A stretch of 64,000 nucleotides of DNA from Comamonadaceae bacterium (GTDB lineage Bacteria > Pseudomonadota > Gammaproteobacteria > Burkholderiales > Burkholderiaceae_C), in assembly GCA_027486755.1 (NCBI GenBank), contig JAIXOM010000045.1:310001-374000 (forward strand). The letters run 5' to 3'. Each line of letters begins with the position of its first letter. Within the stretch, counting starts at the first letter, position 1. The notes under the pieces were generated by a model. It saw nothing but the letters and a program-made list of their open reading frames with translations. It ran no database searches and was not told the DNA's origin. Shown here one piece after another: positions 33,153 through 48,444 of this stretch. The position numbers and the translations under genes were made by a program.

Positions 33153-33320
33153 TTATTTCTTGATGAGCTCCTTGGCGTAGGTCAGGCAGCCCATCGCCGT
33201 TTGGTGGACCGGCGTGGTTTTATCCAGCAGGGGCAAATAGGATTTGTCGAGTTCGCTCACCGCACAAGCCGCTGCGCGGTCGCCGTCCCTGACGCCCGAG
33301 CCATCGCTGACGGTTAACAA
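33153..33320 (-). CDS. Possible small ORF or gene remnant downstream of hrpA
   Basis: A frame of about 55 codons reads ..AACAVSELDKSYLPLLDKTT.. and ends TYAKELIKK, stop at 33153-33155. Its third positions are rich in G and C, as in real genes here, and the peptide composition is gene-like, but no good start or Shine-Dalgarno is seen. The only candidate start, TTG at 33320, overlaps the last codons of hrpA. It could be a small translationally coupled protein, or the surviving 3' end of a deleted gene. No family is recognised. Confidence 0.3.
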   Translation of the reverse strand: MLTVSDGSGVRDGDRAAACAVSELDKSYLPLLDKTTPVHQTAMGCLTYAKELIKK

Positions 33321-36300
33321 TTCAACTGCCCCCAGGCCTTGTCCAGCCTCTTGATGCTGACCGGTTGGGGGGTGCGCAACTCCTGCGCAAACAAGCTAAC
33401 CCTGAGCTCTTCAAGCAGCCAGCGAAATTCCAGCATGCGCGCGTCCTGCACGCCCTTGCGATCAGCCACCAGACGCCAGTAACGCTGCTCCTGGGGCCGA
33501 AACTCAAGCAGGCGTTGCGTATCACGGGCTGGGTCGGCGCGGATTTTGTCCAGGCGCAAAGTGATGGCCTTGAGGTAGCGCGCAAAGTGCTGCAACTGCG
33601 GCCAGGCGGTGGCGGCAATGAAGCCTTTGGGCACCAGGCGTTGCAGTTGCTGGCTGCAGTCAGCTGTGGCCTCAGGGAAGTTTTTGGTGTCCTTGATCTT
33701 GCGCAACGCGGCGGCGTACTCTGTCAGCACCACGCCTGCCAGGCGAGCCACCTCATTGGCAATTAAAGTCAGTCGCGCCCTGCCCTCGTCCAGGCGTTTC
33801 TTGAAGGCCTGCTCATCGCTAGGCAGTGGCTCCAGCACAAAGGCCCGCTCCAGGGCCACACCGACGATCTGGGCCCTGAGCTCTTCGGCCGTGCCCAGCG
33901 GCATGAAGGCCACTGCCATCTTTTGCAGATCGGGTATGTTCTTTTCGAGGTACTTCAGAGCATCTTTGATCTGCAGCGCAAACAATCGGGCCAGACCCTG
34001 TCGGTGCCGGGCGGCAGCCACCTCGGGTTCATCAAACACCTCGATGCAAACAGCATCGCCAGCATCGATCAGGCCAGGAAAGCCGACCAAAGTCTGCCCG
34101 CCCTTAAGGATTTCCATCAGCTCGGGCAACTCCCCGAAGGTCCATGCGGTGTAACGCCGCTCACCAGAGTAATTGGGGTCAGATACCGATTGTTTGACCG
34201 GGGCGGCGAACGGCGAATATTCGGTATCTGACCCCGATTTCTTGGCCCCCTGCTCGACGGGTCCCGATTTAAGGCCCGAATTCTTCAGCTGGGCCAGCGC
34301 CTGGAAGGCGCCGCGGGCCTGGTGACCCAGTTCGGCCTTGAGGGCGCCCAGGTTGCGGCCCATGCTCAGCTGGCGGCCGTGCTCATCAGTGACGCGCAGG
34401 TTCATGAACAAATGGGCACTGAGCATGTCGAGCTTGAAGTCGGCGCGCTTGACGTCCAGGCTGGTCTCGTCGCGTACCTTTTTAAGTAGCACGTCGGTGA
34501 GTGAGCCGGCCCCAAAGAGCTCGGGCGCGGTCAACTCGCCGGCCAGGCGGGCCGCACTTTCGGGCAGGGGCACAAAACGGCTGCGTGGTTTTTGCGGCAG
34601 GCTTTTGAGCAGGGCCCAAATCTTGTCCTTGAGCATGCCAGGCACCAGCCATTCGCAGCGATCTTCGTTGACCTGATTGAGTACAAACAGCGGCACGTCG
34701 ACGGTGACGCCGTCTTTGGCGTCGCCTGGCTCGTGCAGATAGCTGGCGGCGCAGTCCACGCCGCCCAGGCGCAGGGTCTTGGGAAAGGCCTGGGTGGTGA
34801 TGCCTGCGGCCTCGTGCCGCATAAGCTCCTCGCGGGTCAAAAACAGCAGGCGCGGGTTGGTGCGCGAGGCGTCTTTCCACCAGCGCTCAAAGGCCGCGCC
34901 GTTGTGGGCATCGGCCGGCACCTGGCTGTCATAAAAGGCAAAGATCAGCTCGTCGTCGACCAGCACGTCCTGCCGGCGCTGCTTGTGCTCGAGTTCCTCC
35001 ACCTGGGCCATGAGTTTGTGGTTGGCGGCCAGGAAGGGCAGCTTGCTGTCCCAGTTCCCCGCCACCAAGGCCTCGCGAATAAAAATCTCGCGCGCACCCG
35101 CCGCATCCACGCTTGCGTAATTGGCGCGGCGGTTGTTGTAGATCACCAGACCGTAGAGCGTGGCCCGCTCGAGGGCCGAGACCTGGGCGGCTTTTTTCTC
35201 CCAGTGCGGGTCCAGCAGCTGCTTTTTGATCAGATGCCCGCCCACTTGCTCGATCCACTGGGCGTCGATGTTGGCCATGCAACGGCCGAACAGGCGCGCG
35301 GTTTCCACCAGCTCGGCCGCCACGATCCAGCGCCCCGGCCGTTTGGACAGGCGCGAGCCGGGATGGCGGTGAAACTTGATGCCGCGTGCGCCCAAATAAA
35401 AGTCGTCTTCGTCGCTTTTGCAACCGATATTGCCCAGCAGACCGCACAGCAGGGCCAGATGAAGCTGCTCATAGCTGGCCGGCTCTTTGTTGAGCTTCCA
35501 GCCTTGCTCGGCCACCACGCTGACCAGCTGCGAATGGATGTCGCGCCACTCGCGCACGCGGCGCACATTGATGTAGTTCTCGCGCAGCAGGTTTTCGTAC
35601 TGGCGGTTGGAGAGTTTGGGTGAGGCGGGGGCGGCCTGGGTGGATGCACCGCTGCCCCCACCCCAGCCCTCCCCCAGAGGGGGAGGGAGTGAAGAGGCGC
35701 TGCCGCGTGTATGCCCCGGCCTGGCTTGGCTCCCTCCGGGCGAGGGCTGGGGTGAGGGCACGCGTGCCTCGGGCCTTCCCCCCTGCGCTGGGCCCACAGC
35801 ATGCGGCCGCCCTCCCCTGGCCTCCCCAATCCACTGCCAGAGCTTCAAGTACGAAACAAACTCGCTCTTTTCGTCGTCGAACTTGGCATGCCTCTGGTCG
35901 GCCTGGGTCTGTTTATCCAAGGGCCGATCGCGCACGTCCTGCACGCTCAACGCGCTGGCAATGACCAACACCTCCTCCAGAGCGCGGCGCTCACGCGCCT
36001 CCAGCAGCATGCGGCCCACCCGGGGGTCCAGGGGCAGCTTGGCCAGCGCATGGCCTATGGGGGTCAGCTCATTGAAGTCATCGACCGCGCCAAGCTCAGC
36101 GAGCAGTTGATAGCCGTCGGTGATGGCGCGGCGCTGCGGCGGCTCGATGAATGCAAATTCCTCCACGCTGCCCAGATGCAAGGCCTTCATGCGCAAGATC
36201 ACCGAGGCCAGCGAGCTGCGCAAGATCTCCGGGTCGGTAAAGGCTGGGCGACCTAGGAAGTCTTGCTCCTCGTAAAGGCGAATGCAAATACCGTCAGCCA

Positions 36301-37375
36301 CGCGGCCGCAGCGGCCGGCCCTCTGGTTGGCCGCTGCCTGCGAGATCGGCTCGACCAGCAGTTGCTCGACCTTGCTGCGAAAGCTGTAGCGCTTGACCCG
36401 CGCGGTACCGGTGTCTATGACGTACCGTATGCCGGGCACGGTCAGCGAGGTTTCGGCCACGTTGGTGGCCAGCACAATGCGGCGGCCGCTGTGCGCCTCA
36501 AAGATGCGGTCTTGCTCGGCTTGCGACAGGCGCGAGAACAGGGGCAGTACTTCGGCCTCGCGCAGCAGCGGCTGGTGCGCCAGGTGTTTGCGCAAGTGGT
36601 CAGCGGCTTCGCGAATCTCGCGCTCGCCAGGAAGAAAGATCAGGATGTCGCCGTGGCCCGCCCCGCCCTTCCAGAGTTCATCCACGCCATCGACAATCGC
36701 CTCATTGAGGCCGTAGTCCCGGCTATCTTCGAAGGGCCGGTAGCGGGTCTCCACCGGGAAAGTGCGCCCCGAGACCATGATGACCGGCGCCTGGCCCCTA
36801 CCAGAGGCAAAGTAATCCGCAAAACGCTGCGCGTCGATGGTCGCCGAGGTGATGATGATCTTCAGGTCCGGCCGACGCGGCAGCAATTGGCGCAGGTAGC
36901 CCAACAGAAAATCGATGTTCAGGCTGCGCTCGTGCGCCTCGTCGATGATGAGCGTGTCGTAGGCGCGCAGCAGCGGGTCGGTCTGCGTCTCGGCCAGCAA
37001 GATGCCATCGGTCATCAACTTGACCGAGGCGCCGGCCGACAGCCGGTCCTGAAAGCGCACCTTGTAGCCAACCACCTCGCCCAGCGGCGACTTCATTTCT
37101 TCGGCGATGCGTTTGGCCACACTGGAGGCAGCCACGCGCCGGGGCTGGGTGTGGCCGATCAGGTGGCCGCGTTTGCCGGGGTGGTTGGCGCTGCCGCGGC
37201 CCAGGCTTAGCGCGATCTTCGGCAGTTGTGTGGTCTTGCCCGAACCGGTCTCGCCGCAGACGATGACCACCTGGTGGTCTTCGATGGCACGTGCGATGTC
37301 CTCACGCCGTGCCGAAACCGGCAGGCTCTCGGGAAATTCCAGGTGCAAGGCAGCAGGAGGCGGGGCAAGAGACAC
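33314..37375 (-). CDS. hrpA: ATP-dependent RNA helicase HrpA
   Basis: A DEAH-box helicase of about 1353 residues, involved in rescue of stalled ribosomes. Motif I is CGETGSGKTTQLPK, motif II DEAH in LIIDEAHERS, motif III TSATID, then FLPGEREIREAADHL, NVAETSLTVPGIRYVIDTGT and QRAGRCGR. The C-terminal DUF3418 region is complete. GTG 37375 is chosen, just before the SLAPPPAALHLEFPESLPVS segment where homologues begin; an open frame continues to a TTG at 37477 but that part is Leu/Arg-rich and unlike the family. Between the helicase core and the LSNRQYENLLRENYINVRRV block is an odd Pro/Gly/Ser-rich stretch of some 70 residues, caused by an in-frame palindromic repeat at 35654-35760. Confidence 0.93.
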   Translation of the reverse strand: MSLAPPPAALHLEFPESLPVSARREDIARAIEDHQVVIVCGETGSGKTTQLPKIALSLGRGSANHPGKRGHLIGHTQPRRVAASSVAKRIAEEMKSPLGEVVGYKVRFQDRLSAGASVKLMTDGILLAETQTDPLLRAYDTLIIDEAHERSLNIDFLLGYLRQLLPRRPDLKIIITSATIDAQRFADYFASGRGQAPVIMVSGRTFPVETRYRPFEDSRDYGLNEAIVDGVDELWKGGAGHGDILIFLPGEREIREAADHLRKHLAHQPLLREAEVLPLFSRLSQAEQDRIFEAHSGRRIVLATNVAETSLTVPGIRYVIDTGTARVKRYSFRSKVEQLLVEPISQAAANQRAGRCGRVADGICIRLYEEQDFLGRPAFTDPEILRSSLASVILRMKALHLGSVEEFAFIEPPQRRAITDGYQLLAELGAVDDFNELTPIGHALAKLPLDPRVGRMLLEARERRALEEVLVIASALSVQDVRDRPLDKQTQADQRHAKFDDEKSEFVSYLKLWQWIGEARGGRPHAVGPAQGGRPEARVPSPQPSPGGSQARPGHTRGSASSLPPPLGEGWGGGSGASTQAAPASPKLSNRQYENLLRENYINVRRVREWRDIHSQLVSVVAEQGWKLNKEPASYEQLHLALLCGLLGNIGCKSDEDDFYLGARGIKFHRHPGSRLSKRPGRWIVAAELVETARLFGRCMANIDAQWIEQVGGHLIKKQLLDPHWEKKAAQVSALERATLYGLVIYNNRRANYASVDAAGAREIFIREALVAGNWDSKLPFLAANHKLMAQVEELEHKQRRQDVLVDDELIFAFYDSQVPADAHNGAAFERWWKDASRTNPRLLFLTREELMRHEAAGITTQAFPKTLRLGGVDCAASYLHEPGDAKDGVTVDVPLFVLNQVNEDRCEWLVPGMLKDKIWALLKSLPQKPRSRFVPLPESAARLAGELTAPELFGAGSLTDVLLKKVRDETSLDVKRADFKLDMLSAHLFMNLRVTDEHGRQLSMGRNLGALKAELGHQARGAFQALAQLKNSGLKSGPVEQGAKKSGSDTEYSPFAAPVKQSVSDPNYSGERRYTAWTFGELPELMEILKGGQTLVGFPGLIDAGDAVCIEVFDEPEVAAARHRQGLARLFALQIKDALKYLEKNIPDLQKMAVAFMPLGTAEELRAQIVGVALERAFVLEPLPSDEQAFKKRLDEGRARLTLIANEVARLAGVVLTEYAAALRKIKDTKNFPEATADCSQQLQRLVPKGFIAATAWPQLQHFARYLKAITLRLDKIRADPARDTQRLLEFRPQEQRYWRLVADRKGVQDARMLEFRWLLEELRVSLFAQELRTPQPVSIKRLDKAWGQLNC
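35654..35760. repeat. In-frame palindromic repeat pair inside hrpA
   Basis: Two inverted arms: 35654-35689 (GCCCCCACCCCAGCCCTCCC... with an inner CCCCC-AGA-GGGGG hairpin) and 35730-35760 (ending GAGGGCTGGGGTGAGGGC). About 18 of the outer 20 bases pair. It is read in frame by hrpA and yields a Gly/Pro/Ser-rich peptide containing LPPPLGEGWGGG on the minus strand. Related pairs lie in dnaE2 and imuB. Confidence 0.85.
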
Positions 37376-37514
37376 AAAAAAACGCAGCAGCAGCGGGCGT
37401 AAAAACGGTGAAAGGAAAGCAGGCCGCAGCTTAATGGCTGAGCGATGAAGGGTGGGCCTGAGAGAGGGTGCTGTCAACTTCGGTCAAAATCGGCCGAAAT
37501 CGTCTTCAACACCT

Positions 37515-38861
37515 ATGTCCACCGTCTTTAATTTTACCTTCGTGCCCTGGTTCCGCTCGGTGGCGCCCTATATCCACCTGCACAGGGGCAAGACCTTTGT
37601 GGTGGGCATGGCGGGTGAAGCGATTGCGGCGGGCAAGCTGCAGCACATTGCCCAGGATCTGGCACTGATTCAGAGCATGGGGGTGAAGATCGTGCTGGTG
37701 CACGGCTTTCGGCCGCAGGTCAATGAGCAGCTGGCCGCCAAAGGCCACCAGCCGCAATACGCGGGTGGCATGCGCATCACCGACAGCGTGGCGCTGGACT
37801 GCGCGCAAGAAGCGGCCGGGCAGTTGCGCTATGAGATCGAGGCCGCCTTCAGCCAGGGCCTGCCCAACACGCCCATGGCCGGCTCGACGGTGCGGGTGAT
37901 TTCAGGCAACTTCATCACGGCGCGCCCGGTGGGCATCGTCGACGGCATCGACTTCAAGCATTCAGGCCTGGTGCGCAAGGTCGATGCGCTGGGCATACGC
38001 CAGACCCTGGACATGGGCGCGATGGTGCTGCTCTCGCCCTTTGGCTTTTCCATCACCGGCGAGGCTTTCAACCTGTCCATGGAAGAAGTGGCCACCCGGG
38101 TGGCCATCGAACTGCAGGCCGACAAGCTGATCTTTCTGAGCGAAATACCCGGCATCCGGATCCGACCGACCGAGCCTGCCGCCGAAGACAACCCCATAGA
38201 CACCGAAATGCCGCTGGACCTGGCCGAAAAGCTGCTTGCGAGCCTGCCTGCGCCGCTGCAGCCCACTGACACCGGTTTTTATCTGCAGCATTGCGTCAAA
38301 GCCTGTAAGGCCGGGGTCGACCGCACCCATATCCTGCCCTTTGCCACCGACGGCTCGCTGCTGCTGGAAGTCTATGTGCACGACGGCATAGGCACCATGG
38401 TGATTGACGAGAAGCTTGAGGAGTTGCGCGAGGCCACGGTCGACGATGTCGGCGGCATCTTGCAACTGATCGAGCCCTTCGAGAACGACGGTACCTTGGT
38501 CAAGCGCGACCGCACCGAGATTGAACGCGACGCGGGGCTGTACAGCGTCATCGAGCACGATGGCGTGATTTTTGGCTGCGCTGCGCTCTACCCCTACCCC
38601 GAAGCCCGCACCGCCGAAATGGCGGCGCTGACCGTCTCGCCGCAAAGCCAGAGCCAGGGCGATGGCGAACGCATTCTCAAGCGCATCGAGCAAAGGGCCA
38701 GGGCCCAGGGCCTGAGCAGTATTTTTGTGCTCACCACGCGCACCATGCATTGGTTTCTCAAGCGCGGTTTTCAGGCGGTCGATATTGACTGGCTGCCCGA
38801 GGCACGCAAGCGCAAGTACAACATCAACCGCAAGAGTCAGGTGCTGGTCAAGCAGCTTTAA
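37515..38861 (+). CDS. argA: N-acetylglutamate synthase ArgA
   Basis: A 448-residue classical NAGS, the first enzyme of arginine synthesis. The N-terminal amino-acid-kinase domain (about 1-295) starts FVPWFRSVAPYIHLHRGKTF and includes MGVKIVLVHGFRPQVNEQLA and the arginine-sensor region. The C-terminal GNAT domain (about 300-448) has EMAALTVSPQSQSQGDGERI (acetyl-CoA loop) and HWFLKRGFQAVDIDWLPEAR. ATG 37515 starts just before the conserved block; the longer frame has no signal. It is divergent from hrpA. Inhibition by arginine is the family rule and is inferred here. Confidence 0.95.
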   Translation: MSTVFNFTFVPWFRSVAPYIHLHRGKTFVVGMAGEAIAAGKLQHIAQDLALIQSMGVKIVLVHGFRPQVNEQLAAKGHQPQYAGGMRITDSVALDCAQEAAGQLRYEIEAAFSQGLPNTPMAGSTVRVISGNFITARPVGIVDGIDFKHSGLVRKVDALGIRQTLDMGAMVLLSPFGFSITGEAFNLSMEEVATRVAIELQADKLIFLSEIPGIRIRPTEPAAEDNPIDTEMPLDLAEKLLASLPAPLQPTDTGFYLQHCVKACKAGVDRTHILPFATDGSLLLEVYVHDGIGTMVIDEKLEELREATVDDVGGILQLIEPFENDGTLVKRDRTEIERDAGLYSVIEHDGVIFGCAALYPYPEARTAEMAALTVSPQSQSQGDGERILKRIEQRARAQGLSSIFVLTTRTMHWFLKRGFQAVDIDWLPEARKRKYNINRKSQVLVKQL

Positions 38862-38942
38862 GGGCAAGGCCCGCTGGCCCGTACCCGCCCCGCCCCAACT
38901 CAGCGAGCCGGACCAAGCCGGGCTAGACCGGCCTCGGCCGAT

Positions 38943-39314
38943 TTACTGGCGCCAGCCACGCATGCCCAGCAGCCGCGCCATCGCATAGCCAGCCAGCAGG
39001 GACACCAGTACCGTCTGTACAGGATGCTCCTGCACCGCGCTGCGCGATGCCGACCAAGCCCTCTGAGGCAGATCAGTCAGACGATGGCCCTGACCATCCA
39101 TGCGATCGACCAGGCGGCTGGCGCCACTGGCCAGGCGGTCGACCGCGTCATGGGCCACATTGCGGGCCCGACTGAGCGTGTCGCGGGCGGTGTCGGCCGC
39201 CGCCCAATGCGCAGTCGCATTAGCTTGATCGCCAACCACACCGCTGCTGGCGTGCGTGGGTGAGCTCACGCGGGCTGCGTCGCCTGAGCTGTGTGAAAAG
39301 GTCGAGTTGTCCAT
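38943..39314 (-). CDS. Small tail-anchored membrane protein (YqjD/ElaB-like)
   Basis: A 123-residue protein whose first 95 residues are polar and probably helical (AADTARDTLSRARNVAHDAV), followed by one hydrophobic segment VQTVLVSLLAGYAMARLLG near the C-terminus. This layout resembles YqjD/ElaB/DUF883 proteins, inner-membrane proteins that can bind ribosomes in stationary phase. ATG 39314 has TGGAG nine bases upstream. It lies alone between argA and a REP-containing gap. The assignment rests on architecture more than on sequence identity. Confidence 0.6.
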   Translation of the reverse strand: MDNSTFSHSSGDAARVSSPTHASSGVVGDQANATAHWAAADTARDTLSRARNVAHDAVDRLASGASRLVDRMDGQGHRLTDLPQRAWSASRSAVQEHPVQTVLVSLLAGYAMARLLGMRGWRQ

Positions 39315-39635
39315 GCCTTGCTCCAGATAAATCGGTGGATAAAAACGCCAGGCCACCCGACCCAACGCGTTCAGTCACTTTAAGCACACCCAGTGGGCGC
39401 CGCGTCGGCAGCGCCAGACAAGCAGGGTAGGACGCGGCGCTTCTTCTAAGGGACCACCGCGCTTCATCTGCAGCCGCATCGCTGCGAGAGCGCAGCGCCT
39501 ACCGCCAAGAGCAGCCATACAGACATCAGCGAGCATCAGCGAGCATCAGCGATCGTCCTACATCGGCGGGGCTGCGGCGCTGACACCGCGCTGCCTGCAA
39601 GCTGCCTAGATTGGAGGGCATTAAGGAGTCCGCTC
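39315..39635. other. Intergenic region with a REP unit and 10-bp tandem repeat
   Basis: No gene is seen in these 320 bp. A diverged REP unit (CATCGCTGCGAGAGCGCAGC) is at 39477-39503. A 10-base unit, CATCAGCGAG, is repeated about three times at 39524-39553. The region between must hold the promoters of the small membrane protein (minus) and the hydrolase gene (plus); no clear -35/-10 pair could be picked. Confidence 0.6.
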
Positions 39636-40403
39636 ATGCCGCATATGCCTCAGCCCACCCTACCGTCACGCTGGCAGCGCCCGCAGGTGCCGGGGCAGAA
39701 CCAGTTGCGCGAGGTGCGCATCCCGGTGGGATCTCAATGGCTGCATGGCGATCTGGTCTTGCCGGCGCAGATGCACGGTCTGGTGCTGTTTGCGCACGGC
39801 AGTGGCAGCGGCCGTCACAGTTCGCGCAACCGGCTGGTGGCCGCGGCCTTGCACCAGGCCGGCGTAGGCACCTTGCTGCTGGATTTGCTGACGTCGCAGG
39901 AAGAGCAGGCCGACATGCATACTGGCGAGCACCGCTTCAACATGGCCTTGCTGACCGACCGAATACTGACCGCCACCTTGTGGGTGCTGCAGCAACCGGG
40001 CCTGTGGGATTGTCCCTTGGGCTATTTTGGGGCCAGTACCGGCAGCGCGGCAGCACTGATTGCTGCGGCCCGGCTCGATGGCCGCATCGCGGCGGTGGTC
40101 TCGCGCGGCGGCCGCCCCGATCTTGCCGGTCAGGTGACCCTGGCCAGCGTTACCGCCCCCACGCTGCTGATCGTCGGCGGAGCCGATCGCCAGGTACTGC
40201 AGCTCAACACCGAGTCCATGGCCCATTTGCAGTGCGACAAGCGCCTGGCCATTGTGGAAGGGGCCTCCCATCTGTTTGAGGAGCCCGGCGCCCTGCAGGA
40301 GGTCTCGCGCCTGGCCTGTGAATGGTTCAGTCTGTACTTCAGGGCGCAGCTCCTCGGTCAGCCGGCCGCGAGCGTCGAGCAGCGCGCCTGGGGTGTTCAT
40401 TGA
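39636..40403 (+). CDS. Dienelactone-hydrolase-like alpha/beta hydrolase
   Basis: A 255-residue alpha/beta hydrolase. It has a polar N-terminus with GLVLFAHGSGSGRHSSRNRL (oxyanion strand), the nucleophile position in GYFGASTGSAAALIAAA (Ser or Thr after Ala), VSRGGRPDL, LLIVGGADRQVLQLN for the acid, and EGASHLFEEPGAL for the His. It is close to the hydrolase half found fused to phosphoribosyltransferases in other bacteria. AAGGAG precedes ATG 39636. It is the first of a three-gene set with a phosphoribosyltransferase and an erythromycin-esterase-like gene. Confidence 0.87.
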   Translation: MPHMPQPTLPSRWQRPQVPGQNQLREVRIPVGSQWLHGDLVLPAQMHGLVLFAHGSGSGRHSSRNRLVAAALHQAGVGTLLLDLLTSQEEQADMHTGEHRFNMALLTDRILTATLWVLQQPGLWDCPLGYFGASTGSAAALIAAARLDGRIAAVVSRGGRPDLAGQVTLASVTAPTLLIVGGADRQVLQLNTESMAHLQCDKRLAIVEGASHLFEEPGALQEVSRLACEWFSLYFRAQLLGQPAASVEQRAWGVH

Positions 40404-40417
40404 TGGCAGGAGGCCTC

Positions 40418-41179
40418 ATGCGACCCTTGCGTACCGTCAACCCGCCCTACCGCGACCGCCACGATGCTGGCAAGGCGCTGGCCGAGGCCCTGAGCGGCCA
40501 TGCGGGTGAGAACAATCTGCTGGTGCTGGCCCTGCCGCGCGGTGGCGTGGCGGTGGCCTATGAGGTGGCCCGGGCCCTGCACGCCCCGCTCGATATTGTG
40601 GTGGTGCGCAAACTCGGCTTGCCCGGCCATGAGGAATACGCCATGGGCGCCATCGCCAGCGGCGGGGTGCGGGTGATGAACCCGCTACCGGGCATGACGG
40701 TCGCACCCGAGGATCTGGCCGCGGTGCTGAGCCGAGAGGAGGCTGAGTTGGTGCGACGAGAACAGCGCTATCGCGGCGCCCATTCGGCCGTCAGCCCCCG
40801 AGGGCGCCATGTGATTTTGGTCGACGACGGGCTGGCCACCGGTGCCACCATGCGCGCGGCGGCCGTGGCGGTGCGGCAGCAGCATCCTGCCCGTCTCACG
40901 GTAGCGGTGCCGGTGGGCGCACGCGACAGCTGCGCCGAGCTCGCCGATGTAGTCGACGAGTTGGTTTGCCCCTTCATGCCCGAACCCTTTCAAGCGGTCG
41001 GCCTGTGGTACCACACCATGACCCAGGCCAGTGACGAGGAAGTCTGCCATCTCCTTAAGCTGGCACGCAGCGAGCACGCCCAAGAGCTGCGTCAGGCCCT
41101 GAAAGACCGCCGGGCTGCAGACTTGTCCATGCCGGCAGTAGCCCTGGCCGTTCCGCCTGCACCACCGCCTCTGCCATGA
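40418..41179 (+). CDS. Phosphoribosyltransferase
   Basis: A 253-residue type I phosphoribosyltransferase-fold protein. The PRPP-binding motif is VILVDDGLATGATM (about residues 134-147), preceded by LALPRGGVAVAYEVARAL and VVRKLGLPGHEEYAMGAIA. The C-terminus is a Pro/Ala-rich tail. ATG 40418 is preferred over ATG 40403 because CAGGAGG sits five bases upstream. Proteins of this group usually occur beside or fused to the preceding hydrolase type. The nucleobase or other acceptor is unknown, so the gene cannot be placed in a known salvage pathway. Confidence 0.88.
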   Translation: MRPLRTVNPPYRDRHDAGKALAEALSGHAGENNLLVLALPRGGVAVAYEVARALHAPLDIVVVRKLGLPGHEEYAMGAIASGGVRVMNPLPGMTVAPEDLAAVLSREEAELVRREQRYRGAHSAVSPRGRHVILVDDGLATGATMRAAAVAVRQQHPARLTVAVPVGARDSCAELADVVDELVCPFMPEPFQAVGLWYHTMTQASDEEVCHLLKLARSEHAQELRQALKDRRAADLSMPAVALAVPPAPPPLP

Positions 41180-42543
41180 GTTCATCGGCAGGTCCGTCCC
41201 GCACGGGTGCGGTGGCTGGCCTGGCCAGGCCAAGCGCGGCCGAAATTGTTCAGGGTCTGCGCAAACACCTGCAGCCGCTGTTTGCCCACCCTTCAGACTA
41301 CGACCGCCTGCTGACGGCCATCGGGACTGCTCGCTTTGTCCTGCTGGGCGAGGCCAGCCACGGCACCCGCGAGTTCTACAGGGAACGCATCGAGATCACC
41401 CAGCGCTTAATTCTTGAGCGGCACATTGATGCGGTGGCGCTCGAGGCCGATTGGCCCGACGCTTGGCGGGTGCACCGCTATGTCAGCGGCCACAGCGACG
41501 ATGGCAGCGCCGCGCAGGCTCTGGGCGGCTTCGAACGCTTCCCGGCCTGGATGTGGCGCAATACCGAGGTCGCCGCCTTCGTGCAATGGCTGCGCAACCA
41601 CAATCTGAGCAGCGGCTCACAGGTCGGCATCTATGGCCTAGATCTCTACAGCCTGTTTCGCTCGATGCAGCAGGTGCTGGATTATCTGGAGCGGATCGAC
41701 CCTGCCGCAGCGCAGCAGGCCCGAGCGCGTTATGCCTGTTTTGACCATGCGCGCGAGGACAGCCAGACCTATGGCTTGCGGGCCAGCAGCGGTCTGAGCC
41801 GCAGTTGCGAAGACGAGGTGGTGTCTCAGTTGAGCGATCTGATGCAGCGCAGCGTCGAGGGCCAAGCGCCCTGCGACGAGCTGTTTCATGCCCGCCAAAA
41901 TGCACGTTTGGTGCGCAACGCCGAGGCGTATTACCGCAGCCTGTTCGGTGGCCGGGTATCGTCCTGGAATCTGCGCGATAAGCACATGATGGAGACGGTG
42001 CAGGCGCTCGAGCGTCATTTGCAGCGACCCGGCCGCCCAGCCCGTCTGGCGATCTGGGCGCACAACTCGCACCTGGGCGACGCCGAGGCCACCGATATGG
42101 CCGAGCATGGCCAGTGGAATCTGGGGCAACTGCTGCGCCAGCGCTATGGTCAGGAGGTGTTTACCGTCGGCATGAGCACCTACAGCGGCACCGTTACCGC
42201 CGCCCGCGACTGGGACGAGCCAGCGCAGCGCCGGCAGGTACGCCCGGGCTTGGCTGGCAGCTGGGAAGACCTGCTGCATCAGGCTGAGGTCGACCGCTTC
42301 CTTGTGCTGCTGCGCGGCAACGAGGCGCTACAGAAATTGGCCAGCGCGGCGCGTCTGCAACGCGCCATCGGGGTGGTCTATAGGCCCGAGACCGAGCGCC
42401 AGAGTCACTATGTGATGGCCCGCTTGGCGCAGCAGTTCGATGCGCTGCTGCACATCGATCACAGCCACGCGCTCGAGCCCTTGGACAAGGGGCCGGCGTG
42501 GGTCAATGGCGAGGTGCCTGAAACCTATCCCTCAGGCCTATGA
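41176..42543 (+). CDS. Erythromycin esterase-like protein
   Basis: A 455-residue member of the erythromycin esterase (EreA-like) superfamily. Motifs include VLLGEASHGTREFYRERIEI (first catalytic Glu/His pair), VALEADWPDAWRVHRYV, WNLRDKHMMETVQAL and WAHNSHLGDAEATDM. It starts inside the stop of the phosphoribosyltransferase gene. Chromosomal members of this family mostly do not confer macrolide resistance; the natural substrate is unknown. The set of three genes looks like a stress or salvage operon. Confidence 0.88.
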   Translation: MSSSAGPSRTGAVAGLARPSAAEIVQGLRKHLQPLFAHPSDYDRLLTAIGTARFVLLGEASHGTREFYRERIEITQRLILERHIDAVALEADWPDAWRVHRYVSGHSDDGSAAQALGGFERFPAWMWRNTEVAAFVQWLRNHNLSSGSQVGIYGLDLYSLFRSMQQVLDYLERIDPAAAQQARARYACFDHAREDSQTYGLRASSGLSRSCEDEVVSQLSDLMQRSVEGQAPCDELFHARQNARLVRNAEAYYRSLFGGRVSSWNLRDKHMMETVQALERHLQRPGRPARLAIWAHNSHLGDAEATDMAEHGQWNLGQLLRQRYGQEVFTVGMSTYSGTVTAARDWDEPAQRRQVRPGLAGSWEDLLHQAEVDRFLVLLRGNEALQKLASAARLQRAIGVVYRPETERQSHYVMARLAQQFDALLHIDHSHALEPLDKGPAWVNGEVPETYPSGL

Positions 42544-42617
42544 ATCTGCGCTGAATCAGCGCGCCATCATCGCATGATGGGTGCACCTGTGGCGCGGACT
42601 GTGCGCGCCAGGGCTGT

Positions 42618-42818
42618 TCAGCGCTGGTTGGGGCTACGCGCCGTACTGTGGTCACGGTTAGCCGTACCACGCTGATCGTTCATCTGCCGGTTCTGCCCGC
42701 TGGCGACCATTGAAGCCAGCGTGTCCCCGTGGGACTGCAAGCTGTTGGGCGCCTCCGGCACCTGGCCGAGCTGGACGATGCGCTGGGCCGCTTCCTTGAA
42801 CAAACTCTTGTGCGTCAT
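42618..42818 (-). CDS. Possible small hypothetical protein
   Basis: A 66-codon frame: MTHKSLFKEAAQRIVQLGQV then a polar Gln/Asn/Arg-rich tail. Composition is gene-like, but no Shine-Dalgarno is visible and no family is recognised. It is the only plausible gene in the gap 42544-42992. Confidence 0.35.
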   Translation of the reverse strand: MTHKSLFKEAAQRIVQLGQVPEAPNSLQSHGDTLASMVASGQNRQMNDQRGTANRDHSTARSPNQR

Positions 42819-42992
42819 ATTGAAACTGCTGCTGTGTATTCGCTCGCGCCGGCCCTGCCAGGCCGGTCAAACACTTTCACCGCGTCATGCTCTGTGAGGC
42901 ATGTTGCAGCGCGGAAGTTTAGAAGCGAAAACTCAGCAGGGATGTTAAAAATGACAAATGGGCGACACCAATGCTCGGGTAAATCCGCCCCA

Positions 42993-45900
42993 TCAGCGGA
43001 AATCGCGGCTGCTCACCGCCAGCTGCCCGAGTAATTCACTCAGGTCCTGCAAGCGGTGGGCCACCAGATTGCGCACCCGGCCATGACCCGGGGCCAGCCC
43101 CTCGTCTTCGCTGCGCTGCCACACGCCCCAGACGGCCAGCAGGCGCGCGTGCAGCAGCTCGTCGCGCTGACGCTCACGCAGCGGCCGACCGGCGATCACA
43201 TTGACCGAGCCCGATTCATCCTCCAAAGTGACAAAGGTTGTTCCTTTGGATGTTGATGGCTGCTGGCGCACCGTTACGATGCCGCAAGCGGCCACCCGGC
43301 GACCATCGGGCAGGACCTCGAGCTGACCGGCCGACAGCAGGCCGCGCCGCGCCAGTGCCGGACGCAGCAGGGCCAGCGGATGACGGCGCAGGCTCAGGCC
43401 CAGAGCCTGGTAATCACCCACGATATCCTGGGCCTCGGCCATGGGCACAAGCTCCAGGGCCGGTTCGTGGACCGGCACCGAACGCAGCAAGGCCGGCGCT
43501 GGCTGCAGGGCTGAAGCAGCCCAGGCCTGCTGACGACGGTGGCCAGCCAGCGAGGCCAGCGCATCGGCTGCAGCCAGGGCATCAAGATCGCGCCGGCCAA
43601 GTTCGGCGCGCAAAGCCAGGTCTTCCACGCTTGCAAAAGGCTGCTGGGCACGCGCCGCCAGGATTCGCAGAGCCCCGGCCTGTGACAGGCCCGACACCAG
43701 ACGCAGGCCCAGCCGAATGACCGGCTGCGCGTGCCCCCACTGGGAGAGCTTGGGGGCATTGCAGGGCACCGAAGCCTCCTCCAGCGTGCAATCCCAGCCA
43801 CTGAGCGCTACATCCACCGGCCTGACCTCAATGCCATGCCGGCGTGCGTCTTGCACCAGTTGCGAGGGCGAGTAAAAGCCCAGCGGCTGGGCGTTGAGCA
43901 TGGCGGCCAGAAAACAGGCTGGCTCATGGCGCTTGAGCCAGCAACTCACATAGACCAGCTTGGCAAAGCTGGCGGCGTGGCTCTCCGGAAAGCCGTATTC
44001 GCCAAAGCCCTCGATCTGGCTGAAGATGCGCTGGGCGAACTCAAAGTCATAGCCCTTCTCGACCATGCGTCCGACCAGACGCTGCCGGAAGGGGTCAAGC
44101 CCGCCCTTGCGCTTCCAGGCGGCCATGGCGCGGCGCAGCTGATCGGCCTCGCCCGGGCTGAAGTCGGCGGCGATCATGGCGATTTGCATCACCTGCTCCT
44201 GAAAAATCGGCACGCCCAGGGTGCGACCCAGGGCTGGGGCCAGCTCTGGGTATTCCATGTCCTTGACGGCTCCCCTGCCCTGCTCTGTCCCCTTGTCTTT
44301 CTCCCTCTGGGAGAGGGCTGGGGTGAGGGCATCGCCCGTCACCGCGGCCTGCCCCCACCCCGACCCTCCCCCAAGGGGGGAGGGAGACTGCGCGCGGCGC
44401 AGCCGGCGCTGCTCTAAATAGGGGTGCACCATGCCCCCCTGGATAGGCCCGGGCCGCACGATGGCCACCTGCACCACCAGGTCGTAAAAGCAGCGCGGTT
44501 GCAGACGCGGCAGCATGCCCATCTGGGCTCGGCTTTCAATTTGGAACACGCCCACCGTGTCGGCGGCGCAGATCATGTCGTAGGTGGCGCTGTCGTCGGC
44601 CGGGATCTGATGCATCTGCAGCTCTGTACCGCGCCATTGGCGGCGCAGGTCCAGGCAGCCCCGGATGGCCGAGAGCATGCCCAAAGCCAGCACGTCAACC
44701 TTCATCAGACCGACCGCCTCCAGGTCGTCCTTGTCCCACTGGATGATGTAGCGCTCCGCCATGGCCGCCGGCTGCACCGGCACCAGACGGGTGAGCTTGT
44801 CGTGGGTGAGCACAAAGCCGCCCACATGCTGGCCCAGGTGACGCGGCATGTCCAAGGCTTGCAGCGTCAGCGCCAGCCACTGCTGCACCGCCGGGTGCTG
44901 CGGATCGATGCCCTCTGGCCAAGCCGGCGGCTGCGGGTCGCGACCCAGCCAGCTGCAGTCACGGCTCAGGGCCTCGATCAGCTCGGGCTGTAGGCCCAGG
45001 GCCTTGCCCACGTCGCGCAAGGCGCTGCGCGGCCGGTAGCGGATCACCGTGGCGGCAATGGCCGCGCGCTCATGGCCGTACTGCCGGTAAATATAGGCAA
45101 TGACCTCCTCGCGCCGCTGGTGCTCGAAGTCCACATCAATGTCCGGCGCCTCCAGCCGCTCGCGGCTGATGAAGCGCTCAAAAAGAAGCCGGCTCTCGGC
45201 CGGGTCGACTGCGGTGATGCCCAGGCAGTAGCACACCGCCGAATTGGCCGCCGAGCCGCGCCCTTGACACAAGATGCCCTGCGAGCGGGCAAAGCGCACG
45301 ATGTCGTGCACCGTCAGAAAGTACATCTCGTAGCGCAGCTCGGCAATCAGGGCGAGTTCATGCGCAATCTGCTGCGTCACCGCCGCCGGCGCGCCCTGCG
45401 GGTAGCGCTCGCGCAGGCCCGCCTCGGTGAGCTGGTGCAGCCACTGCAGCGGCGTGTGGCCGGCCGGCACGCTGTCTTGGCGGGGGTAGGCATAGTGGGC
45501 GCGAATCTCGTCCAGGCTGAAGCGGCAGCGCCTGGCCACCGTCAAGGTGGCCGCCAGCAGCTCCGGCGGATAGAGCTCGGCCAGCCGCAGGCGCGAGCGC
45601 AAATGAGCCTGTGCATTGGGCTGCAGGGCACGTCCGGCCTCGCGCACGGTGCAGCCCTGGCCGATGGCGGTCAGCACATCGTGCAGCGGCTTGCGCGAGC
45701 GCAAATGCATCAGCACGCCGCCAGCGGCGAGCAGGGGCACGCCGGTGCGCTCAGACAACTGCTCGAGCTGCTGCAGACGCAAGGCATCGCCCAGCCGCTG
45801 CTGCAGATGCACCGCCAGCCACAGCCGGCCCGCCCACAGCGCGCGGGCCCAGTGCAGCAAGCTGGCCAGCACCGCCTCGTCGATGGGCTGATCGATCAGG

Positions 45901-46298
45901 GGGCACAGCAACAGCTCGCACTCGCGCAGGCGCTCAAACGCCGCCTCGCCCAGGGCCACCCGGTAGCCCGCATCCGTGCCCTGCCCGGCTTGGCGCGCTG
46001 CGGTGATGAACTCGCACAGATCGCCCCAGCCCTGCATGTTGTGGGGCAGCACCACCAGGCGCAGCGGCTGCTCATGCAAGCGAAATTCAGCGCCCGGCAG
46101 CAACTGCAGGCCGCAGGCCTTGGCTGCCTGATGCGCCCGCACCACGCCGGCCACCGAACATTCGTCGCTGAGCGCCAGCGCCGCATAGCCCAGGGCCTGT
46201 GCCCGCTCGACCAATTCTTCAGGCTGCGAAGCACCGCGCTGAAAGCTGAAGTTGCTCAGCGCGTGCAGCTCGGCGTAGTCGGGCAGTACAGAGGCCAT
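42993..46298 (-). CDS. dnaE2: Error-prone DNA polymerase DnaE2 (ImuC)
   Basis: An 1101-residue C-family polymerase alpha subunit of the DnaE2/ImuC type. N-terminal PHP domain (about 1-280) opens YAELHALSNFSFQRGASQPE. The polymerase core contains GRGSAANSAVCYCLGITAVD and ISRERLEAPDIDVDFEHQRR with the catalytic Asp residues, and FQIESRAQMGMLPRLQPR. The C-terminal OB region has VTVRQQPSTSKGTTFVTLED. It acts with ImuA/ImuB in damage-induced mutagenesis. The start, ATG 46298, follows imuB by nine bases. An odd Ser/Gly/Gln-rich insert of about 35 residues after GGMVHPYLEQRRLRRA is made by a palindromic repeat (44299-44386). Confidence 0.95.
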   Translation of the reverse strand: MASVLPDYAELHALSNFSFQRGASQPEELVERAQALGYAALALSDECSVAGVVRAHQAAKACGLQLLPGAEFRLHEQPLRLVVLPHNMQGWGDLCEFITAARQAGQGTDAGYRVALGEAAFERLRECELLLCPLIDQPIDEAVLASLLHWARALWAGRLWLAVHLQQRLGDALRLQQLEQLSERTGVPLLAAGGVLMHLRSRKPLHDVLTAIGQGCTVREAGRALQPNAQAHLRSRLRLAELYPPELLAATLTVARRCRFSLDEIRAHYAYPRQDSVPAGHTPLQWLHQLTEAGLRERYPQGAPAAVTQQIAHELALIAELRYEMYFLTVHDIVRFARSQGILCQGRGSAANSAVCYCLGITAVDPAESRLLFERFISRERLEAPDIDVDFEHQRREEVIAYIYRQYGHERAAIAATVIRYRPRSALRDVGKALGLQPELIEALSRDCSWLGRDPQPPAWPEGIDPQHPAVQQWLALTLQALDMPRHLGQHVGGFVLTHDKLTRLVPVQPAAMAERYIIQWDKDDLEAVGLMKVDVLALGMLSAIRGCLDLRRQWRGTELQMHQIPADDSATYDMICAADTVGVFQIESRAQMGMLPRLQPRCFYDLVVQVAIVRPGPIQGGMVHPYLEQRRLRRAQSPSPLGGGSGWGQAAVTGDALTPALSQREKDKGTEQGRGAVKDMEYPELAPALGRTLGVPIFQEQVMQIAMIAADFSPGEADQLRRAMAAWKRKGGLDPFRQRLVGRMVEKGYDFEFAQRIFSQIEGFGEYGFPESHAASFAKLVYVSCWLKRHEPACFLAAMLNAQPLGFYSPSQLVQDARRHGIEVRPVDVALSGWDCTLEEASVPCNAPKLSQWGHAQPVIRLGLRLVSGLSQAGALRILAARAQQPFASVEDLALRAELGRRDLDALAAADALASLAGHRRQQAWAASALQPAPALLRSVPVHEPALELVPMAEAQDIVGDYQALGLSLRRHPLALLRPALARRGLLSAGQLEVLPDGRRVAACGIVTVRQQPSTSKGTTFVTLEDESGSVNVIAGRPLRERQRDELLHARLLAVWGVWQRSEDEGLAPGHGRVRNLVAHRLQDLSELLGQLAVSSRDFR
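44299..44386. repeat. In-frame palindromic repeat pair inside dnaE2
   Basis: Arms at 44299-44330 (CTCCCTCTGGGAGAGGGCTG then GGGTGAGGGC) and 44351-44386 (GCCCCCACCCCGACCCTCCC then CCAAGGGGGGAGGGAG). Same family as in hrpA. It is translated in the minus frame as SPSPLGGGSGWGQ ... LTPALSQREKDKG, and falls in a loop of the polymerase between VHPYLEQR and YPELAPALGRTLGVPIFQEQ, where homologues are continuous. Confidence 0.85.
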
Positions 46299-46307
46299 GG
46301 CTGAACT

Positions 46308-47699
46308 TCAGGCAAAGATGCCGTGCAAAAACCACGACAGCGTCGCATCAGCCCGGCGCTCGCGGTAAATCCAGAGCAGGCCAGCTTGCGCGCTGCGGGC
46401 AATGAAGTAATCGCGCATGACCGAGTCTTGGGCAGGCTGCGGCTGCCCCGCCTGCCCGCTCGTCAGCGCCATCCAGGCGCTGCTCTCCAGCCGCTGCGGC
46501 CCCACCAGCAGGGTCAAAGGCCCAAGGTGACATGGCCGATCGCCCTGCAAGCGCAAAGGCTGGGGCTGCGGCAGCAGCCAGGTGGGCAGCAGATCACCCT
46601 CTCCCCACCCCAAGCCTCCCCCTGGGGGGGCGAAATCAGGTCTCGCCTTTTTCTCCCTCCCCCTCTGGGGGAGGCTTGGGGTGGGGGCAGAGCTCACCGC
46701 CAAAGCCGGCAGCCACTGCTGCATGCACTCGGGCACGTGGCGATCGCACGGCTGCCAGCGCTGGACCTGGGCACTGCCCAAGCGCTCGCCCAGCCGCTCG
46801 AGCAAGTGCACCAGGCTCTCACCCCGGCGCTGCTCGTCCGGCAACAGGCTCTGGCTCTCCAGCCGCACCGGCACCGTCTCGACCGTGCGCAGCACCAGCG
46901 CTTGCACCGGCGCGCTCAGGCGCAGGCCGGCCAGCCGCTCGGCCAACAAACGCAGCACATGGGCCATGTCCTGAGTCGGCTCGCTCAGGCGCAACAGCAA
47001 AACCGCCGGTGCGGTGCTGCCCCGGCGCGCGTCGATCTGCCACTGCAATTGCAGCGCCAGCACACCCTGGCTGCGCGCCAGCAACCAGGCCTGCAAACGC
47101 TGCAACAGGCGGCGCGCGGCAAACAGCAGCGCCTGGGCATGCTCGACGCCGCTGGGCCACTGCAACCGGTCTTCAAAGACCTCGGGCAACTGTAGCCAAG
47201 TGTGGTTTTCAGGCCGATCGCCATAGGCCATGTCCAGCGCATCGAGCAGCCCCTGGCCAAAGCGGCGGGCCACGCCGTCCCGTGGCAGCGCCCGCAGGTC
47301 CTGCCATTGCCGGCAACCCAGGCGCTCAAGCACCGGCAGATGAGGCCCGGCCGCGCTCAGGCAGGCCAGGGGCAACTGCCCGACCGCCACCCGGGCCGAC
47401 TCGCGCCAAGGCAGGCCCAGTTGCAAACGCGCCAGGGCCTGCAGCGCGGTCTGACCCGGGGCCGCCTGCAAAGCCACCGCCTCGACCATGCCGGCCGCTA
47501 GCACCTGCTGCCGCAACTGCGCCAGCAGGGGCGCGAGCCCGCCAAACAGGCGCAGACTGGTCGAGACCTCCATCAGCACCGCCGCCGGCGCCAAGCTCAC
47601 CCGGGGGGTGCAGCGCAAGGCGTGGCAGGCCAGCGCCTGCACGCTGCCCGCATCGACCGGCCCAGCCTCAGACCAGGCTCTGAGCGCGATCCACAGCAC
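46308..47699 (-). CDS. imuB: Y-family polymerase-like protein ImuB
   Basis: A 463-residue ImuB, a catalytically inactive Y-family polymerase relative that bridges DnaE2, ImuA and the beta clamp. It starts VLWIALRAWSEAGPVDAGSV, so the acidic catalytic motif of DinB is absent, as usual for ImuB. Further blocks are ALRCTPRVSLAPAAVLMEVS, SLRLFGGLAPLL and ERLGCRQWQDLRALPRDGVA (HhH region); the C-terminus has DYFIARSAQAGLLWIYRERR. The GTG at 47699 is chosen: GGAGG lies six bases upstream and homologues begin here. It overlaps imuA by 32 bp. A Gly/Pro-rich palindrome-coded insert (46597-46688) lies in the C-terminal region. Confidence 0.92.
   Translation of the reverse strand: MLWIALRAWSEAGPVDAGSVQALACHALRCTPRVSLAPAAVLMEVSTSLRLFGGLAPLLAQLRQQVLAAGMVEAVALQAAPGQTALQALARLQLGLPWRESARVAVGQLPLACLSAAGPHLPVLERLGCRQWQDLRALPRDGVARRFGQGLLDALDMAYGDRPENHTWLQLPEVFEDRLQWPSGVEHAQALLFAARRLLQRLQAWLLARSQGVLALQLQWQIDARRGSTAPAVLLLRLSEPTQDMAHVLRLLAERLAGLRLSAPVQALVLRTVETVPVRLESQSLLPDEQRRGESLVHLLERLGERLGSAQVQRWQPCDRHVPECMQQWLPALAVSSAPTPSLPQRGREKKARPDFAPPGGGLGWGEGDLLPTWLLPQPQPLRLQGDRPCHLGPLTLLVGPQRLESSAWMALTSGQAGQPQPAQDSVMRDYFIARSAQAGLLWIYRERRADATLSWFLHGIFA
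46597..46688. repeat. In-frame palindromic repeat pair inside imuB
   Basis: Arms at about 46602-46622 and 46668-46688 carry CCCCACCCCAAGCCTCCCCC and its exact complement, 20 of 20 bases. Both differ from the hrpA/dnaE2 arms at the same place (AAGCCTC rather than CAGCCCTC), as compensating changes. Translated on the minus strand as PTPSLPQRGREKK ... PPGGGLGWGEG. Confidence 0.87.
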
Positions 47700-48444
47700 C
47701 GGACACCTCCGAAAGCGCCAGGGTCTGCACCAGCCGCGCCCGGCGGCGACGTGCTTGCCCGTGGCTGGCCGCCAGCAACTGCTGCAAGGCGCTCGGCTGC
47801 ATCTGCAGCAGCAAGGGCGCGGCCAGAGGCGGCCCCCGCCTTTTGAGCACCTCCACCTGCAAAGCCGGTGGCCGCCCGCCTGCCTCGGCCTGAGCCTGCG
47901 GCCAGTCCAGCGACAAGCGCAAAGGCGCAGGCGAAGCCTCTTGCCGGGCCGACGGCGGCCGGCAGACAAACAGCAGACGGCTATGCTCTTGTGCCAGCGT
48001 CTGCAAACGCCGCAAGGCAGCTGCCGGTACCGCCCCCAGCCACAGCAGCACCGCCGGCACATCGGCGCAGCGCAGGCCCTGCTCGGCCGCCCACAGCCTG
48101 TCGGCCAGGGCATCGGCCTGCACCTGCAGCAAAGAGCCCGGCACACAACCACGCGCCGCCAGCGCCGGGCCAAAAGGCAGCCAAGGCGCACCAATGAGCA
48201 CCACTGCCGAACGCCCAGACCTCGGCGCCTGAGCCGCCAACTGACTCAAAGCGGGCGCCAGCAAACCCCATTCAGCATGCAAACCCGGCGCCTGCAGCAA
48301 CTCGCTGATGCCCCCCACCGGCCAGCCACCACCCGGCAAGGCGACATCGAGCGCCGCATGGCCGGTAGGCAGCACCAAGCCCGGCGGGCGCGCCAATTCA
48401 CTGGCGCGCCAGACATCGGGCAAGGCATGGGCAGGCAAAGACAT
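47668..48444 (-). CDS. imuA: Translesion synthesis accessory protein ImuA
   Basis: A 258-residue RecA/SulA-like protein. It starts SLPAHALPDVWRASELARPP, then GLVLPTGHAALDVALPGGGW, with GGISELLQAPGLHAEWGLLA and a degenerate nucleotide-binding core including VVLIGAPWLPFGPALAARGC. The C-terminal RRRRARLVQTLALSEVSG is basic. It is the first gene of imuA-imuB-dnaE2. ATG 48444 has the best fit; an upstream Met at 48462 adds six residues. The promoter region upstream carries a LexA box, so the cassette should be SOS-induced. Confidence 0.9.
   Translation of the reverse strand: MSLPAHALPDVWRASELARPPGLVLPTGHAALDVALPGGGWPVGGISELLQAPGLHAEWGLLAPALSQLAAQAPRSGRSAVVLIGAPWLPFGPALAARGCVPGSLLQVQADALADRLWAAEQGLRCADVPAVLLWLGAVPAAALRRLQTLAQEHSRLLFVCRPPSARQEASPAPLRLSLDWPQAQAEAGGRPPALQVEVLKRRGPPLAAPLLLQMQPSALQQLLAASHGQARRRRARLVQTLALSEVSGAVDRAQSLV

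Follow-up and report, generated by a model that had tools for sequence, protein, structure and literature searches.

REP-like palindromic repeats read in frame in re-used loops of HrpA and other long proteins of a Comamonadaceae bacterium

A 64,000-nucleotide stretch from a Comamonadaceae bacterium (assembly GCA_027486755.1, contig JAIXOM010000045.1, positions 310,001 to 374,000; hereafter the window) carries a GC-rich palindromic repeat, family 1, in frame within three genes, hrpA, dnaE2 and a gene taken for imuB, and an unrelated palindromic repeat, family 2, in frame at a second place in hrpA. Family 1 behaves as a dispersed palindromic element resembling repetitive extragenic palindromic (REP) sequences and bacterial interspersed mosaic elements (BIMEs). 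The explanation that we favor as a whole, with good but not full confidence, is that such elements insert at many places and that in-frame copies persist only where a loop of a large protein tolerates them.

As the initial annotation had described, each of the three GC-rich inserts consists of two inverted copies of one unit (CCCCACCCC..CCTC..CCC) and keeps the frame open. The inserts lie within open reading frames (ORFs) of 1387, 1101 and 628 aa. In hrpA (33314..37477, minus strand, 1387 aa, identified by ORF and Pfam), which carries both repeat families, a family-1 dimer of the '+-' orientation occupies 35655..35759, in the loop preceding the oligonucleotide/oligosaccharide-binding (OB) fold (HrpA residues ~561-617). 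The dnaE2 (imuC) gene (42993..46298, minus strand, 1101 aa, also by ORF and Pfam) contains a '-+' dimer at 44304..44388, in the hinge YLxxR..YPEL, where it splits the Pfam finger domain, which was matched in two stretches. The third insert, a '+-' dimer with the variant core CAAGCCTC at 46600..46689, is in frame close to the C-terminal end of a gene called imuB here from its place upstream of dnaE2 and its likeness to the sequence found there in two relatives. This gene lies in the ORF 46308..48194 (minus strand, 628 aa), gave no profile match in Pfam or NCBIfam, and by eye probably starts ~155 codons inside the ORF. The second hrpA insert, which the initial annotation had missed, is an inverted family-2 (GGGGTCAGATACC) pair (AGTAATTGGGGTCAGATACCGATT / AATATTCGGTATCTGACCCC) at 34168..34242; it lies in frame at residues ~1073-1102, within the DUF3418 region, and translates as KKSGSDTEYSP...QSVSDPNYS. 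Pfam confirmed the identities of HrpA and DnaE2, and the best named DnaE2 matches were from Comamonadaceae, Polaromonas and Rhodoferax, with identities of 74% and less, which places the window in a relative of these. An Rfam search of the window returned nothing above the gathering scores.

The family-1 unit is ~40 nt long (GCCCTCACCCCagCCCTCTCCCaga GGGaGAGGGaG; consensus of 241 units from four genomes, GCCCTCACCCCagCCCTCTCCCagaGGGaGAGGGaG) and occurs alone, in inverted pairs, or as arrays. With a degenerate pattern allowing up to 1 mismatch, we found 79 sites (37 + 42) in the 4.0-Mb genome of the window (G000), versus 3 for the reversed pattern, which is more than chance would give. Further genes of this genome also carry family-1 inserts. 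Its distribution is patchy: 12 same-genus genomes, selected by hand, contained 83, 63, 32, 29, 13, 2, 1 and 1 sites and, in four of them, 0, and the exact unit occurred in 25 of the 150 genomes searched within the family, representing 23 of 126 genera, with no occurrence of the reversed control. Like the REP superfamilies, family 1 has a unit that is short and palindromic, occurs in many copies and forms inverted dimers; some units lie within ORFs, and repair genes are among the hosts. It does not carry the unpaired GTAG/CGTC tag of the GTAG/CGTC REP superfamilies; GTAG was present in 10 and 3, and CGTC in 19 and 14, of the 241 units (two strands), all below the means of shuffled units (27.4 and 62.5). 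A BIME-like cluster of seven alternating units with similar spacers was observed at C28:21574-22063 (L048) of G000.

Loop re-use was examined in HrpA. We searched 60 same-genus genomes together with the window's own genome, and assigned loop states by eye in the best-scoring 30 loci (L074-L103), own locus included. At the loop around residue 561, 7 of these 30 loci contained family 1, 1 a family-1 remnant, 5 family 2 and 3 another or a short sequence, and 14 were empty. A tree was built after removal of the insert columns from 29 of the 30 rows; row L090, an antisense ORF in the alignment, was excluded and was later read as empty. On this tree starred branches forced at least 5 of the 7 changes needed for family 1 and at least 4 of the 5 needed for family 2, and neither label taken by itself was more clustered than in shuffles. 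The HrpA proteins of G032, with family 1, and G048, with family 2, were sisters with end branches of ~0.01, and empty alleles stood just outside. Among near relatives the empty allele measured 111 bp, the family-1 allele 195 bp and the family-2 allele 204 bp, giving steps of +84 and +93 bp, both multiples of three.

The loop was also followed into other genera, in 30 genomes picked by hand, 15 of them for holding family 1. Among these genomes family 1 occupied the loop in G064, without mismatches, and in G073, with 2 each. In one reading the loop was legible in 17 of the 30, with 9 empty and 8 long alleles. Two of the long alleles (G123 and G085) presumably represent further repeat families. 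At the second HrpA loop, around residue 1073, inspection by eye revealed family 2 in L074, L088 and L089, whereas L086 held a family-1 unit; in other genera, family 1 was found there in G150, G111 and G099 (0 to 2 mismatches) and, more weakly, in G180 and G073 (2 to 3). A third site, at HrpA residue 229, held a family-3 repeat (GRPKxGAAPSGGSDDAQRGAWG), in frame and sometimes doubled, in 10 of the best 30 loci (L081, L083-L085, L087, L089, L091, L093, L097 and L098). The family-3 pattern gave 6 matches in G000 and up to 60 in other genomes, and its matches elsewhere in G042 and G049 were spaced 84-87 bp apart.

Family-1 copies are mostly intergenic, as judged by a codon model that required a single open frame to score best for coding to the left and to the right of a cluster. 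The clusters covered were all those of the 79-site count in G000, except five one-mismatch sites unlike the unit (C15, C20, C29, C35 and C53), and the listed zero-mismatch sites in G042, G032 and G045, three genomes picked as repeat-rich and well assembled. In total 32 of 140 clusters were in genes (10/45 in G000, 9/46 in G042, 6/21 in G032 and 7/28 in G045). The G000 count became 14/45 when four clusters missed by the codon test were added by hand, namely a second uvrA site, the linker of a NuoE-NuoF fusion, and two contig-end halves of one mfd insert.

The in-gene clusters of the four genomes fell into 20 host families by the codon test, with the NuoE-NuoF fusion as a 21st by hand. Besides hrpA, dnaE2 and imuB, these were, by NCBIfam, uvrA, ygiQ, aceF, metG, formate dehydrogenase alpha, lipB, xdhA, purL, mfd, a nitrate reductase- or formate dehydrogenase-like gene, gmd, biotin carboxylase, acyl-CoA ligase, an indolepyruvate oxidoreductase-like gene, putA, a DNA methylase-like gene and a hydantoinase-like gene, some of the names being based on matches under the curated cut-off. 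The same gene and linker region was filled in several of the four genomes for hrpA (3), xdhA (3), uvrA (3), metG (2), mfd (2) and ygiQ (2), although the G000 insert in uvrA lay ~30 residues away from the other two and the two ygiQ inserts lay ~15 residues apart. The hosts were long: their median length, set by hand with the insert subtracted and with some ORFs cut by stretch ends, was 752 aa, versus 358 aa (95% range, 290-444) expected from length-proportional draws, none of which reached 752 in 20,000 trials. With length-squared weights the probability was 0.0007. The background, 345 genes called from a 400-kb sample of G000, is slightly too short, because genes truncated at the edges of the 20-kb stretches had been removed. 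The initial annotation had remarked that all three window hosts act on DNA or RNA. This was only partly borne out: by our tally it was true of 7 of the 20 families (hrpA, dnaE2, imuB, uvrA, mfd, metG and the DNA methylase-like gene) but not of the other 13, and the hosts are of unusual length.

One host locus (L043:3179-9676) encodes a double-length UvrA of 2166 aa with three repeat inserts. In the NuoE-NuoF fusion (L055:6770-8776; formate dehydrogenase beta-like), the linker looks built from degenerate repeat copies (SEGRGS... LPLPLGEGRGEG). The mfd gene of G000 is split across two contig ends (L041:1-130 and L050:1-258; contigs C7 and C30) inside a tandem array of a 42-bp (14-codon) repeat (PPPPNEEEGGQAAL), which is flanked by two family-1 units and has 2.3 copies on one side of the break and 5.6 on the other.

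The DnaE2 alignment showed a second hotspot near residue 846, where a fourth repeat was present in 2 of 29 rows (L282 and L283). The peptides at this hotspot were FDKLR / PELVEG and LGSDPN, and L120 and L108 were also filled, with family names given by peptide likeness. At the site of the window's DnaE2 insert, the family-1 insert was absent from the 28 remaining rows, of which one is misread, and a long unlike stretch in G007 may be a decayed family-1 insert. The 29-row set includes an antisense ORF (L281), and several of the 80 DnaE2 rows are misread ORFs (e.g., L117, L128, L137 and L168).

Placement in loops, as proposed in the initial annotation, was borne out in all four hosts checked against solved homologues. 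The phmmer alignments stopped and resumed around the inserts, at HrpA 554|621 (one residue between in the homologue, E. coli HrpA), XdhA 394|430 (three), Mfd 356|404 (twelve) and UvrA 760|834 (four).

The in-gene dimers were also biased in orientation and frame. Inverted pairs with the CCCTCACCCC ends outward ('+-') and pairs of the other orientation stood at 19:4 in genes versus 11:44 outside (Fisher p 3e-7), and at 15:4 versus 11:44 (p 7e-6) when homologous in-gene sites were collapsed by hand and the outside dimers were left uncollapsed. The median length of the in-gene '+-' dimer was 93 bp. Stop codons were not supported as the cause of this bias; intergenic dimers of the two orientations have the same average of open frames, 2.64 of 6. 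The '-' unit was read in the frame LPLPLGEGxGEG at 16 of 21 collapsed sites, against 3 and 2 sites for the two remaining frames (p 7e-5), and the bias persisted (p = 0.0007) after the frame that often holds TGA was dropped. No clear preference was seen for the '+' unit (frames 11, 7 and 6). The TGA-prone frame is used by three inserts, among them those of the window's dnaE2 and imuB. The frame bias suggests a constraint on the peptide and gives only indirect support, not proof, for translation of the inserts.

Family 2 differed from family 1 in its neighborhood. The sole Y1-transposase match in G000 was a REP-associated tyrosine transposase (RAYT) with family 2 (GGGGTCAGA) on both sides. In 12 RAYT loci, from the window's genome and eleven others, inspected over ~1.5 kb around the gene with up to 1 mismatch, family 2 adjoined the RAYT in 9, on both sides in 4, and was absent in L266, L269 and L270. 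Two further Y1 matches (L262 and L274) looked like other types, with neither family adjoining. In G000 family 2 had 22 sites, against 0 for the reversed control, and only the hrpA pair was clearly in a gene. A single RAYT serving both families was not supported, since family 1 had no RAYT linkage in the 12 loci.

Under the explanation that we favor, family-1 copies would land in many places, with the survivors mostly intergenic. A copy within a gene would survive only if its net length were a multiple of three, the frame stayed open and the loop tolerated extra residues, and its translation would then give a linker rich in Pro and Gly (PSPQPSP..GRG...LPLPLGEGRGEG). In this way large multidomain enzymes would have tolerant loops that serve as sites more than once, and the insert itself would be mobile, translated and close to neutral. 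Re-use of tolerant loops would explain why several unrelated repeats, among them family 1 and the RAYT-linked family 2, fill the same loop in different species. We entertain more tentatively a broader reading, in which the interdomain loops (HrpA 229, 561 and 1073, DnaE2 846, and the UvrA, XdhA and Mfd linkers) may be shared landing sites where one palindromic family gives way to another, unrelated one within short times, the usual in-gene form being a dimer of one preferred orientation, so that repeats would drive a general turnover of linker peptides.

Several observations weigh against repeated insertion into tolerant loops. The orientation bias is neither predicted by an insertion model nor accounted for by stops. 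No transposase was tied to family 1, which lay within ~1.5 kb of the RAYT in 0 of the 12 loci; six of these 12 genomes hold 13 or more family-1 sites. The loop at HrpA 561 was long without a recognized repeat in 6 of the 17 readable genomes of other genera, so its length varies by other means too. Taken together, the six loop states were clustered on the HrpA tree (12 changes; 9 of 200 shuffles needed so few). The comparison of insertion boundaries in relatives suggested in the initial annotation gave the +84 and +93 bp steps but no visible target duplication, of the kind expected for an IS-derived MITE, or clean junction between empty and filled HrpA loops, whose flanks are too diverged for a firm statement. 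Finally, TCCAACCGCC stands to the right of the loop in all 13 family-1 and family-2 carriers, the remnant included, versus 1 of the 14 empty alleles, and the likeness among carriers fades within ~30 nt. In this right flank, three close carriers and three close empties were 0.83 identical over the first 30 nt and 0.95 at 60-240 nt, and carriers from distant lineages were 0.92 identical over the first 30 nt. The shared flank could come from short interspecies exchange or from a target preference.

These flank data, together with the identical left junction GGCAGGCCCTCACCCC of family 1 in G032 and G042, are what would be expected if loop alleles moved by homologous recombination, with a few insertions spread as short exchanged tracts and the scatter of states reflecting gene flow rather than repeated insertion. 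We consider this possible but somewhat doubtful as a full account: it leaves the first insertions and the presence of unrelated families in one loop unaccounted for, the tract spans only ~30 nt, and a target preference could also give a shared flank. It is improbable, in our judgment, that the loop insert is ancestral and was lost many times, the repeats being remnants. The presence of family 1 in other genera at HrpA 561 and at HrpA 1073 agrees with an old insert, and so does the short allele of G021, 111 bp less than that of G000, which contains a piece of the family-1 unit. The initial annotation had taken the same insert at the same site in distant genera as the mark of an old loop, and family 1 does lie in the same HrpA loop in G064 and G073, which agrees with this in part. 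Empty and differently filled loops are, however, interspersed with the filled ones, a pattern that does not fit a single old fixed loop. The sister proteins of G032 and G048 further argue against an ancestral insert, as does the match of the inserts to repeats with many intergenic copies.

Selection of the inserts for altering DNA repair or the mutation rate, as proposed in 2013 for REPs in repair genes, would be in keeping with the presence of uvrA, mfd, dnaE2 and imuB among the 20 host families, and the same kinds of host were reported independently in passages of PMC3733652. By our own tally, however, 16 of the 20 families are outside DNA repair, and host length by itself is strongly biased, which makes this an unlikely cause. 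Taking repair genes to be ~9% of long genes, which is our own estimate, 4 of 20 is no clear excess, and we do not claim one. An assembly or frame artefact with non-functional proteins is the least credible explanation and very improbable. One host, mfd, is indeed broken over two contig ends in a tandem array, but the same loops and repeats recur in other assembled genomes and the frames are open with coding signal on both sides. The initial annotation had associated a nearly complete restriction of the repeat to intergenic DNA with such artefacts; this applies in part, as most copies are intergenic, with 32 of 140 clusters in genes.

In-frame REP insertion inside genes is already known. The initial annotation held that no ordinary REP element does this, a statement contradicted by passages of the 2013 report on intragenic REPs in uvrA, DnaE2, RNA helicase and tRNA synthetase genes (PMC3733652). 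The same passages describe uvrA genes with two REP inserts each, suggest flexible linkers or loops as their places, and give a precedent for loop re-use in different REPs at about the same recB site in two Xanthomonas species. The GTAG/CGTC REPs described there are, like family 1, small hairpin repeats that are mostly intergenic, often dimeric and in a minority of cases inside ORFs; unlike them, family 1 has no GTAG/CGTC tag and no adjoining RAYT. Where those passages have other genes of a category entered at different sites, we found a single HrpA loop empty, filled by family 1 or filled by family 2 among near-identical proteins. Family 2 resembles RAYT-linked REPs (REPtrons), with a RAYT adjoining in 9 of 12 loci, whereas family 1 does not (0 of 12).

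The likeness to Rickettsia palindromic elements pointed out in the initial annotation holds, in that dispersed palindromes are read in frame inside many unrelated genes (here 20 host families and a 21st by hand) and add a peptide, as described in parts of PMC10969869. Compared by description only, those elements are ~150 bp long versus a median of 93 bp here, and family 1 is GC-rich and found in relatives of Comamonadaceae. Passages of PMC3110155 describe the BRE, a GC-rich betaproteobacterial repeat of ~90 bp found in Bordetella, Polaromonas, Rhodoferax and others, which, like family 1, has some copies wholly in coding sequence. Identity of family 1 with the BRE, compared by description and counts, is disfavored, since Polaromonas sp. 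JS666 has 29 BRE copies (PMC3110155) versus 2 family-1 sites; the family-3 pattern has 4 matches there. The passages and sections of the open-access literature covered contain no report of family-1, family-2 and empty states in one loop of near-identical proteins, or of an orientation bias, a frame bias or a host-length effect.

These results repeat, for a different bacterial group and a different repeat, the 2013 report of REPs in repair and RNA genes, and offer a simpler, testable cause, the tolerant loops of very long proteins. They also carry a warning for annotation, as peptides such as PSPQPSP..GRG or LPLPLGEG within proteins can derive from repeats. Since the loop states differ among near-identical HrpA proteins, insertion and recombination can be tested against each other directly in strain collections.

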